Shown: one piece after another, positions 22,758 to 26,245 of the stretch | How the letters are laid out: every line of letters begins with the position of its first letter | Position numbering within the stretch: the first letter of the stretch is position 1 | Source: Prolixibacteraceae bacterium | GTDB lineage: Bacteria; Bacteroidota; Bacteroidia; Bacteroidales; Prolixibacteraceae | Reading direction: 5' to 3' | DNA: 64,000 bases | Assembly (NCBI GenBank): GCA_021740385.1 | Contig: JAIOZY010000016.1 | Span: 1 to 64,000, forward strand | The notes under the pieces: generated by a model | Told to the model about the DNA's origin: nothing | The model's database searches: none | The model's input: only the letters and a program-made list of their open reading frames with translations | Made by a program: the position numbers and the translations under genes

Positions 22758-24542
22758 ATGAAACATGTATACAAATTTCACTTAGTAAGATTATTGCTGC
22801 TAAGTACTCTCTTTTTCAGTGGTTTAAACGTTTCGGCCCAACAAAGCATTTCAGAAATTTCGAAACAGTTGGAACAATTGGCATCCAACCAAAAAATATC
22901 GCTCGAAAAACTGGCCTATACAACAGGCAAGCACCCGGTGAACCTGATTAAATTTGGTAAAACAAAAGAAAACAAGCCCGCCATTTTTGTTGCAGCAAAC
23001 CTCGATGGAACAAACCTCATGGCAACACGGGGCGCCCTTTGGCTTGCCAATTTTCTGACAAACAGCACCAACAGCAGTAATGAATTTATCTGGTATATTT
23101 TGCCCTGCGGAAATCCCGATGCTTACCAACGCTATTTTGAAAATCCACAATGGGAATCGAACACCAACAAAACCACAGTAAACAACGATAACGACGAACA
23201 AACAGATGAAGATGGCCTTGACGACCTGAACGGCGACGGACTGATTACGCAGATGCTGGTAAAACACCCGCTGGGCGAATACATTAAAGATACTGCCGAC
23301 ACCCGGATTGTACGAAGGGCAAAACCCGAAAAAGGAGAAAAAGGCATGTATAAATTATTTTCTGAAGGTATTGATAATGATGGTGATGGCGAATATAATG
23401 AAGACACTCGCGGCGGCGTAAACATCAACCGTAATTTCAACTACCTGTACGAGCCTTATGTACCCGAACACGGAAAATGGAACAGCTCTGAACCCGAAAC
23501 ACATGCCCTGATGAAATTCTTTGCTGAACATCCTGAAATTGCAATGGTCATCGTACTCGACAAACACGACAACCTACTATTCCCTCCCGAAACCGATTCA
23601 AAAAATAACAAAAGCCAGAAAATTAAGGTACCAGGTTATTACGCAAACAGGTTGGGAATTGATGCCTCGAAAGTATATTCCCCCGAAGAATTGAAAAAGG
23701 AAATTGACCAGAACGTTGAAGACAAAGAACTCGGCAACAGGGTTTACCTTAACCTGTTAAACAGCACCCCTCCTGAAAACATACAATCCGACGATCTGAA
23801 ATTTTACAAACAAATTTCGAATGAATACACCCAATTCTTAACAAAGAATAACCTGCCGGAAAAATACCACAAACTACCGGAATGGAACAACGGCAGTTTT
23901 GAACAATTTGCATATTTTGAATACGGTCTGCCCGTGTTTTCGATGAATGTTTATCCTTTTCCTGAACGTGAAAACAGCAAATCGAAAAAGAACGATGACA
24001 AGAACAATTCAGAAACAGAACAATTACTGGCATACTCCGACTCACTGAATGTTACTGTTTTTGTCGACTGGGAAACCGTTAGCCACCCCGATTTCGACTA
24101 CGTTGAAGTTGGTGGCTTAATGCCCTTTGCGCACAGCATTATTGTCCCGGCCGATTCGCTCGAAACCCGTTTTGAAAAACAGCTACCCTTTATTTACAAG
24201 CTGGCTGAAAAAATTCCAACTTTAACCACCGAACACAGTATTTCGAAAAAAAGTGAAGGAATTGTAAAACTTGAAATATTCATTACCAACAACGGTGCAC
24301 TGCCCTGCCCCACTTTCATGGGGCAACGCAACCGTAAACCGGCACCCGTAGTTATAACTCTCGATAACAATCTTGAATTCCTGTCGGGGAAAGCCCGCAC
24401 CCCCCTGGAAAACATAGATGCGGGGCAAACCAAAAAATTCACTTACCTGATCAATGTAAAAGAATCCAAAGTATTAACACTTTACATTGAAGCAAAAAAT
24501 GTGATTGTGCATCAACCCACCGTAAAAATTAAACTGCAATGA
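22758..24542 (+). CDS. M14-like pseudopeptidase (catalytic residues lost)
   Basis: A 594-residue secreted protein (signal peptide to about residue 27, ...LNVSAQ) that aligns with the active M14 zinc carboxypeptidase encoded next to it, including the Ca-binding-like DxDxDG loops (NNDNDEQTDEDG, GIDNDGDGEYNED) and the NRN substrate motif. Every catalytic position is changed: HxxE is DGTN (ANLDGTNLM versus GNIHGNE), the third zinc His is Asp (MVIVLDKHDN versus MVWAFHNYGG), and the catalytic Glu is Asn (FSMNVYP versus FVGELYQ). It should not hydrolyse peptides. It may bind substrate or assist its partner; the stop overlaps the partner start by 4 bases (ATGA). Confidence 0.75.
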   Translation: MKHVYKFHLVRLLLLSTLFFSGLNVSAQQSISEISKQLEQLASNQKISLEKLAYTTGKHPVNLIKFGKTKENKPAIFVAANLDGTNLMATRGALWLANFLTNSTNSSNEFIWYILPCGNPDAYQRYFENPQWESNTNKTTVNNDNDEQTDEDGLDDLNGDGLITQMLVKHPLGEYIKDTADTRIVRRAKPEKGEKGMYKLFSEGIDNDGDGEYNEDTRGGVNINRNFNYLYEPYVPEHGKWNSSEPETHALMKFFAEHPEIAMVIVLDKHDNLLFPPETDSKNNKSQKIKVPGYYANRLGIDASKVYSPEELKKEIDQNVEDKELGNRVYLNLLNSTPPENIQSDDLKFYKQISNEYTQFLTKNNLPEKYHKLPEWNNGSFEQFAYFEYGLPVFSMNVYPFPERENSKSKKNDDKNNSETEQLLAYSDSLNVTVFVDWETVSHPDFDYVEVGGLMPFAHSIIVPADSLETRFEKQLPFIYKLAEKIPTLTTEHSISKKSEGIVKLEIFITNNGALPCPTFMGQRNRKPAPVVITLDNNLEFLSGKARTPLENIDAGQTKKFTYLINVKESKVLTLYIEAKNVIVHQPTVKIKLQ

Positions 24543-26245
24543 AACAAATACTGACAACCCTGTTCGTGACATTTTCCATGATCAATGTAAATGCAAGGCA
24601 AAATGCGATAGAAATACCCCTGCGTTTCGATCACTATTACGCGTATGAAGAGGTTAACGAAGCTTTATTCAAACTCCACGAAACCTATCCAAAGCTAACA
24701 AAGCTTGAAGTTGTAGGCAAAAGCGACGAAGATCGGGAAATCATGGCACTCACCATAAACAATGCAAAAACCGGCAGCGATATAGAAAAACCGGGCATAT
24801 ATGTCGATGGCAACATCCACGGTAACGAAATACAAGCCAGCGAGGTATGCTTGTATCTTGCCAACTATCTGTTGGAGAAATACGGCACGAACAAAACGGT
24901 TACTGACCTGGTTGACCGCATAAGCATGTACATCATCCCGTCGGTTAATGTCGACGGGCGCTGGCATTTTTTCAACGATGCCAATAACCCGAACACCAAC
25001 AGGAGTCTTCGCCGGCCGCAGGACGACGACAATGACGGCCTTTACGACGAAGACCCCTACGACGACCTCGATGGCGATGGAAATATTTGTTACATGCGGA
25101 TAAAAAACCCCGATGGCAAGTATAAAACACACCCCAAAGATAAACGCCTGATGGTTGAAATAAAACCGGGTGAAAAAGGAGAATGGACCATTCTGGGTTA
25201 CGAGGGGCTCGATAACGACAACGACGAACGTTTTAACGAAGACAGCGAAGGGTATGTAGACCCGAACCGAAACTGGCCGTTTAACTGGAAACCCGCTTTT
25301 ATCCAGCGGGGAGCAGGGCAATATCCCTTATCGGGAAAAGGGCTGAATGCCATTGCACAATTCATTGAAGAAAGACCGAATATACTAATGGTATGGGCTT
25401 TCCACAACTATGGCGGCATGTTTTTACGAAGCCCCAGCACAAAAGAGAAAGAAATCCCCAAACAGGATATTGAAGCCTACGACCTGCTGGGAAAAAAAGC
25501 TGAAAAAATGGTGCCCGGCTACAACTACATGCCTTCATACGACCTGTACCCTACTTATGGCGATTTTGGTGAATTTACTTACAACATGATGGGCGCTTTC
25601 ACCTTTGTTGGTGAACTGTATCAAAACGACAGCGAAACATTTAACAAGGAAGCCAAAAACCCCGATGAAAGCAACCAGAAAGACTATGAACGCCTGCAAT
25701 TTAACGATTACCTGGCCCATGGCGAATTGTACAAAGAGTGGAAAACTTTCAATCATCCCGATTACGGTGAAATTGAAATTGGAGGATGGGTTAAAATGAG
25801 CTCAAGGCTGCCCCACCCCTTTTTATTGCCCGAGTTGCTTCACCGAAATGCCGCTGCTGTTATCTACTCAGCCAACCAGCTTCCTGAAGTTGAAATGGAA
25901 ATATTCGAAAATGATGCATTGGGCAACAACCTCTACAAAATACGGGTCAGGCTACGCAACAAAAAAGGACTGCACACCATGAGCATGCAAAGCTGGCAAA
26001 ACAAACTATACACGCCCGACCATATCGTTATTAGTGGTGCAAAAGTTATTGCCGGTGGAAAAATCAACAACCGGTTCACGAACGATGTAACTTATAAAGA
26101 ACACAAACCCGAAATTCAGTTTACCCGTGTTCCGGGTTTTTCAACGGTTGAATATGAATTCATTGTTGAAGGCAAAGGTACTGTTCAAATCGATTACAAA
26201 TCGCGGAAAGCTAAAAACAACAACATCATAATCAACTTGAAATAA
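24539..26245 (+). CDS. M14 family zinc carboxypeptidase
   Basis: A 568-residue secreted metallopeptidase with a signal peptide (to about residue 20). Zinc and catalytic residues are all in place: GNIHGNE (HxxE), PSVNVDG, VDPNRNW (substrate Asn-Arg), WAFHNYGG (third His) and FVGELYQ (catalytic Glu). Two Asp/Asn-rich loops (DDDNDGLYDEDPYDD, GLDNDNDERFNED) look like calcium sites and are characteristic of this Bacteroidota subgroup. A beta-rich C-terminal domain follows. It is translationally coupled to the inactive paralogue. Substrate unknown, probably peptides taken up or processed at the cell surface. Confidence 0.85.
   Translation: MKQILTTLFVTFSMINVNARQNAIEIPLRFDHYYAYEEVNEALFKLHETYPKLTKLEVVGKSDEDREIMALTINNAKTGSDIEKPGIYVDGNIHGNEIQASEVCLYLANYLLEKYGTNKTVTDLVDRISMYIIPSVNVDGRWHFFNDANNPNTNRSLRRPQDDDNDGLYDEDPYDDLDGDGNICYMRIKNPDGKYKTHPKDKRLMVEIKPGEKGEWTILGYEGLDNDNDERFNEDSEGYVDPNRNWPFNWKPAFIQRGAGQYPLSGKGLNAIAQFIEERPNILMVWAFHNYGGMFLRSPSTKEKEIPKQDIEAYDLLGKKAEKMVPGYNYMPSYDLYPTYGDFGEFTYNMMGAFTFVGELYQNDSETFNKEAKNPDESNQKDYERLQFNDYLAHGELYKEWKTFNHPDYGEIEIGGWVKMSSRLPHPFLLPELLHRNAAAVIYSANQLPEVEMEIFENDALGNNLYKIRVRLRNKKGLHTMSMQSWQNKLYTPDHIVISGAKVIAGGKINNRFTNDVTYKEHKPEIQFTRVPGFSTVEYEFIVEGKGTVQIDYKSRKAKNNNIIINLK

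Follow-up and report, generated by a model that had tools for sequence, protein, structure and literature searches.

Why should a bacterium keep, immediately upstream of a zinc carboxypeptidase gene, a homologue in which the zinc ligands and the catalytic glutamate have all been replaced? The question is raised by two overlapping genes in a 64,000-nucleotide stretch of DNA from a Prolixibacteraceae bacterium of the phylum Bacteroidota (assembly GCA_021740385.1, contig JAIOZY010000016.1, positions 1 to 64,000 of the forward strand), referred to below as the window. Gene A (22758..24542, + strand) encodes a 594-amino-acid protein with a hydrophobic N-terminus, a predicted M14 fold and a beta-rich C-terminal part. 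Gene B (24539..26245, + strand) encodes a 568-amino-acid M14 carboxypeptidase, also with a hydrophobic N-terminus, in which the catalytic set is complete. All window positions given below are on the same strand. A preliminary description, made from the letters of the window, had taken A for a pseudoenzyme retained alongside an active partner, and this proposal has held up: no A homologue among 190 distinct ones has an intact site, close pairs of A show purifying selection, and the two genes co-occur and adjoin each other with a single unlinked exception. Its further suggestion, a substrate-binding or regulatory subunit, is a possibility. By its residues A is a conserved M14 pseudopeptidase, the loss of its essential residues being kept across relatives under selection, and it is probably a partner subunit of B.

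Two M14 genes and their active sites

Both proteins lie above the Pfam Peptidase_M14 cut-off of 21.6 bits (62.5 bits for A, 144.5 for B), and they are 31% identical to each other. PHROGs has no family for either protein, and NCBIfam gave only two matches for A, far under their cut-offs, and none for B. Two more M14 places are found in the same genome, on different contigs. The AlphaFold2 model of A, built from 20 alignment rows, has a mean predicted local distance difference test score (pLDDT) of 71.8 and a predicted template modelling score (pTM) of 0.73. Its Foldseek matches are carboxypeptidases, and VIA-align places it on carboxypeptidase B (1zli) with a Z of 21.8 and a root-mean-square deviation (rmsd) of 2.9 over 250 residues. 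By sequence family and by modelled fold, A belongs to M14.

Active-site columns are given in the numbering of bovine carboxypeptidase A (CPA), with 69, 72, 127, 145, 196 and 270 taken from the table of PMC11266112. At column 69, a zinc-ligand His, the alignment gives D83 in A (23004..23006) against H94 in B, and at column 72, a zinc-ligand Glu, it gives N86 (23013..23015) against E97; the two B residues belong to the HGNE zinc motif (24818..24829). The third zinc-ligand His, at column 196, is replaced by D268 in A (23559..23561) and present as H289 in B (25403..25405), while at column 270 the catalytic Glu is N397 in A (23946..23948) and E359 in B (25613..25615). These are the changes that the preliminary description had read from HxxE to DxxN, from the third His to Asp and from the catalytic Glu to Asn, with HGNE, His and Glu retained in B. 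Two further differences were absent from it: column 127 is N135 in A and R155 in B (25001..25003), and column 248, where the alignment is less certain, is E375 in A and Y337 in B (25547..25549). The numbers 144 and 248 are those which we take these columns to have in CPA. B therefore has the complete M14 set (H94, E97, H289, E359, R155, N243, R244, Y337), and from these residues it would be a working zinc carboxypeptidase.

The remainder of the earlier picture was equally accurate for the window. An N-R-N motif is present in both proteins, at residues 224-226 of A (23427..23435) and 243-245 of B (25265..25273, the Asn144-Arg145 equivalent). Two Asp-rich Ca-type loops are likewise common to both; in A they cover residues 142-161 (23181..23240) and 203-216 (23364..23405). 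The four-base overlap of the genes is an ATGA (24539..24542), in which the ATG of B starts at 24539 and the TGA of A occupies 24540-24542.

Loss of the site and retention of the pair in relatives

Residues were counted in 190 distinct A and 193 distinct B sequences, 173 of these B covering all four zinc-binding and catalytic positions. Before repeats were removed, the set comprised 193 A and 230 B, including truncated duplicates of one and the same B and a few almost identical A; A pieces under 450-500 amino acids are omitted from the counts. None of the four residues is kept in 189/190 A, and the remaining sequence (L282) keeps one, Glu at position 72. An intact zinc site in homologues of A, which the preliminary description had named as the mark of a copy in simple decay, is found in 0/190. 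Position 69 of A is Glu in 145 sequences, Asp in 18, Lys in 10, Ser in 9 and something else in 8, but never His. Position 72 is otherwise His, Val, Asn, Thr and others; position 196 is Gly in 144, Ser in 38, Asp in 6, Thr in 1 and Glu in 1, with His again at zero; and position 270 is Pro in 86, Asn in 51, Asp in 33, Gln in 10 and another residue in 10, with no Glu. In B all four residues are kept by 171/173 fully covered sequences: His and Glu stand at positions 69 and 72 in 193/193, His at 196 in 173/174 covered and Glu at 270 in 172/173 covered, and the Arg127, Asn144, Arg145 and Tyr248 columns are invariant wherever covered. The two exceptions are the first of two tandem B genes (L232) and the B of a locus from a metagenome-assembled genome (MAG) in which A is also in pieces (L163). 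An A gene followed by two tandem B genes is found in L231 (genome G643) and L232 (G851); the first B of L232 carries Leu in place of the third zinc His and is perhaps a second dying copy.

Selection was estimated as the ratio of nonsynonymous to synonymous substitution rates (dN/dS), using Nei-Gojobori counts with dS under 2, for 90 pairs of loci picked by 12-mers common to B from 107 loci of the window's own family and beyond. A has a median of 0.082 (range 0.015-0.150) and B one of 0.046 (range 0.009-0.111), and the value for A exceeds that for B in 87/90 locus pairs. Purifying selection thus acts on close A pairs, and A is constrained, less than B. The window pair is in none of the 90, because no relative close enough passed the filter.

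Loci were gathered by similarity to A alone, and B was sought afterwards. Among the 273 loci obtained (L037-L310 and the window), many of which are the same assembly fetched twice and so are not independent cases, 267 have B as the next gene, at most 400 nucleotides away and on the strand of A, 5 reach the locus edge and 1 is without B, which makes B the readable 3' neighbour of A in 267/268. The sole unlinked case is G719 (L235, L236), where A and B are on separate contigs, away from contig ends. Genome counts agree: within the window's own family A is found in 56/140 genomes and 8/23 genera, and B (expectation value E of 1e-100) in 55/140, an identical set except for G137, whose contig ends inside A. 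In a phylum sample, B at E 2e-128 or better is found in 37/395 genomes and A in 36 of these; in the 37th (G662), B starts at the contig edge. At 145 distinct junctions the distance between the A stop and the ATG of the B frame is +2 nucleotides in 52, -4 in 30 and -1 in 4, the nearest ATG having been chosen, with a bias towards short distances. In five loci (L145, L168, L187, L307, L308) the B open frames, whose starts are provisional, have long N-terminal extensions, four of which overlap A's frame at length.

A wider operon was considered and rejected, as clustering of the neighbours found no third gene common to the loci. Because the commonest other cluster occurs in only 34/134 loci (which partly repeat assemblies), the pair looks like a unit of its own and not like a section of some larger operon; those inspected among the 34 are all in the window's own family. 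The loci hold paired genes for an active and an inactive homologue, to judge from the residues.

A profile of 20 A sequences (E 1e-40) reached at least 30/393 genomes of an order sample and at least 35/395 of the phylum sample. These are lower bounds because scoring was restricted to a few top candidates from each genome: for G643 and G888, the scored match was B, and A was later found adjoining it. In another family (kin of G603), A is found in 56/216 genomes at E 1e-60. The best 80 of 488 confirmed places in a scan of GTDB genomes, with phyla read from titles, comprise Bacteroidota (52), Acidobacteriota (5), Krumholzibacteriota (3), Zixiibacteriota (2), Aminicenantota (1, plus 10 Aminicenantes without rank), one each of Balneolota, Chlorobiota and Myxococcota, and 4 unranked. 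The records from outside the Bacteroidota are almost all MAGs, whose labels may err; strains among the carriers include Fodinibius halophilus (Balneolota) and Draconibacterium orientale (Bacteroidota). Six genomes of the phylum sample have only weaker B matches near 1e-65, which represent another B-related M14 group of about 600-690 amino acids (L311-L316). Five of these have HSGE for the HGNE of B and, as judged by eye, carry Asp in place of the third zinc His (M-D-T where B has F-H-N); in L315, the sixth, the motif is HDNE.

Trees came from quick runs of IQ-TREE on reduced sets, first 53 A with 45 B and then 51 A with 45 B, both including long rows; for the second, L233_A and L237_A were dropped as long rows and seven M14 outgroup rows were added. 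In the first tree (99 rows), A forms one side of a branch and B another, with Shimodaira-Hasegawa-like approximate likelihood ratio (SH-aLRT) supports of 98 and 86. With the outgroup, A is still one group (SH-aLRT 99), and L315 falls beside B; this position and the very long branch of the outgroup row L001 leave the root between A and B unsettled. A is one clade, and its inactivation is therefore old. Several sub-groups, such as that of the window and L107, recur on the A and B sides. The pattern fits one duplication, with A inactivated before the sampled lineages split and the two genes then inherited or transferred jointly.

Possible roles of the inactive protein

Preservation of the pair in several phyla makes it probable that the dead copy has a function in its own right, most likely as partner of the live one. 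We lean towards A being a non-catalytic partner subunit of B, a secreted carboxypeptidase. In such a scheme A and B, products of an old gene duplication, would be read from one coupled gene pair, the spacing of the genes suggesting co-transcription and coupled translation. Their N-terminal sequences point to export by the general secretory route: a hydrophobic N-terminus without lipobox is found in 186/193 A and 229/230 B, and a lipobox-like motif in 4 A, by a crude test with repeats included. Outside the inner membrane, B would, to judge from its residues, trim C-terminal residues from peptides. The likeliest arrangement is a heteromer of A with B, in which A may support B in folding or stability, in the presentation of substrates or in docking.

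The former pocket of A gives some indication of what kind of role this could be. A rough motif rule divides the A sequences into type I (120 sequences, among which 19 with Pro at 270 still fall) and type II/III (73 sequences). In type I, column 196 (Gly) is more conserved than 88% of columns and column 69 (Glu/Asp) than 75%, and columns 72, 127 and 248 are widely variable. In type II/III, N144 is present in 73/73, Lys or Arg at 145 in 65/73, His at 72 in 63 and Pro at 270 in 70. A retained N-R pair would speak for substrate binding. Because N144 and the basic residue at 145 are kept in type II/III and are lost from most type I A, the former may still have the carboxylate-binding end of their site, unlike most of the latter. 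The A of the window is of type I, yet keeps the N-R-N that is mostly replaced in its own-family relatives, chiefly by G-I, as it is in type I relatives generally. Given this uneven survival of the carboxylate-binding end, any function that all A have in common is more likely to be protein-protein than to depend on a shared peptide pocket. In some type I A of about 670-730 amino acids (e.g., L065, L082), an insert several tens of residues long separates the M14 core from a W-x(n)-HP motif; the window A is without this insert. The A gene of L086 / L200 is an 810-residue open frame with a long Ala-His-rich repeat close to the N-terminus.

Several observations weigh against A as a partner of B. 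The A subgroups carry different residues at the former site, so that one shared ligand is unlikely. The A frame is in pieces in five loci (L074 and L169, apparently one record, L163, L231 and L303), in three of them beside an undivided B (L074, L169, L231), and the match to A in G195 has one internal stop; these broken frames may reflect either assembly error or real loss. Finally, modelling has not defined an interface. In the relative L244 (type III), A and B share a reading frame and are separated by a single TAA, which was read as Q, and the resulting chain was modelled with AlphaFold2 from an alignment of 64 rows, 30 of them A-B chains, checked row by row. The model has a mean pLDDT of 84.0 and a pTM of 0.52; the halves are good, and because of that pTM their arrangement is undefined, so the model neither shows nor excludes an A-B complex. 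Its B half matches carboxypeptidase T (3prt) with a Z of 30.8 and an rmsd of 2.8 over 302 residues, in a comparison dominated by M14 parts and minimal for the A half.

The same model is compatible with a second, rather improbable reading, in which A is an independent secreted binding protein for a peptide or cell-wall ligand, working in the same pathway as B with no contact between them and linked to it for co-expression. No A-B interface is predicted, the G719 pair is unlinked, and type II/III A keeps the carboxylate-binding subsite, with N144 throughout and a base at 145 in most. However, N144 and R145 are lost in most type I A, and in two samples no assessable genome has a strong B without A, which would be more than is usual for pathway partners. 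It is unlikely that A instead serves specifically to help B fold or to inhibit it, as a separately encoded likeness of the pancreatic carboxypeptidase prodomain. The position of A first in the gene order and an N-terminus of the same kind as that of B would suit such a role, and control by a homologue has a precedent in the C-terminal tail of Csd2, which lies in the groove of Csd1 in the crystal (PMC5053510). Yet what the model of A resembles is the M14 catalytic domain (no separate search for a prodomain-like part was made), and there is no sign of inhibition. A different enzymatic activity or metal site, whether retained or newly acquired by A, is very doubtful: an acidic residue stands at 69 in 163/190 A and Asp at 270 in 33/190, but where the third ligand would be, 188/190 have Gly, Ser or Asp and none has His, position 72 is mixed, and no alternative ligand set is common to the family. 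Decay of A as a mere duplicate of B was rejected and deserves almost no credence, for although its dN/dS is the higher in 87/90 pairs and it is in pieces in a few assemblies, that ratio is far below 1 (maximum 0.150), A is one old group across phyla, and all relatives are without the site.

Comparison with known peptidase pairs

Compared with the M14 metallocarboxypeptidases (PF00246; carboxypeptidases T, A and B), A and B are alike in fold and family, and B is alike in its catalytic set, but A is without any zinc ligand or catalytic Glu, and both differ by their Asp-rich loops and beta-rich C-terminal part. Inactive members of M14 are known: PMC11266112 names four in vertebrates and one characterised in yeast (AEBP1/ACLP, CPXM1, CPXM2, domain III of carboxypeptidase D (CPD) and yeast Ecm14), with His69 kept in all five. 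Like A, these are M14 homologues with lost active-site residues; unlike A, which is bacterial and has His69 in 0/190, they come from animals or yeast. Of the five, CPD alone joins inactive and active M14 domains, in one chain where A and B are two; its domain III adjoins active M14 domains, and substrate presentation has been suggested for it (PMC11266112, section 3.1). What a dead M14 domain does beside live ones, as in carboxypeptidase D, becomes a directly testable question with a two-gene bacterial system. The pair is compact and occurs in cultured strains such as Draconibacterium orientale, the dead copy being kept wherever the live one occurs. Named by its family match alone, gene A would pass for an active zinc carboxypeptidase.

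Outside M14, pairs of an active and an inactive homologue are known from M16, where a bacterial M16B enzyme comes from a two-gene operon (PMC11266112, section 4), and from M23B. In Helicobacter pylori, Csd1 and Csd2 are a zinc peptidase and a homologue with incomplete metal ligands that form a proven heterodimer (PMC5053510; the live/dead pair is also found in PMC9507126). Csd1-Csd2 is unlike A/B in fold and family, and peptidoglycan is its likely substrate. No bacterial M14 pseudopeptidase or live/dead M14 pair was found in the literature searched, among the papers listed there and with subscription journals mostly outside it. The mitochondrial processing peptidase (MPP) and the M16B pairs are alike in that a single peptidase family supplies both the active and the inactive homologue; MPP has the M16 fold and is a heterodimer known by structure, whereas in A/B the fold is M14 and the heteromer is presumed. 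To the fuller proposal we give about even weight: A and B may form a two-subunit M14 carboxypeptidase present in several phyla, whose anciently inactivated subunit is an obligate partner and the first bacterial M14 pseudopeptidase family within the literature searched, and which would thus be the M14 counterpart of MPP.

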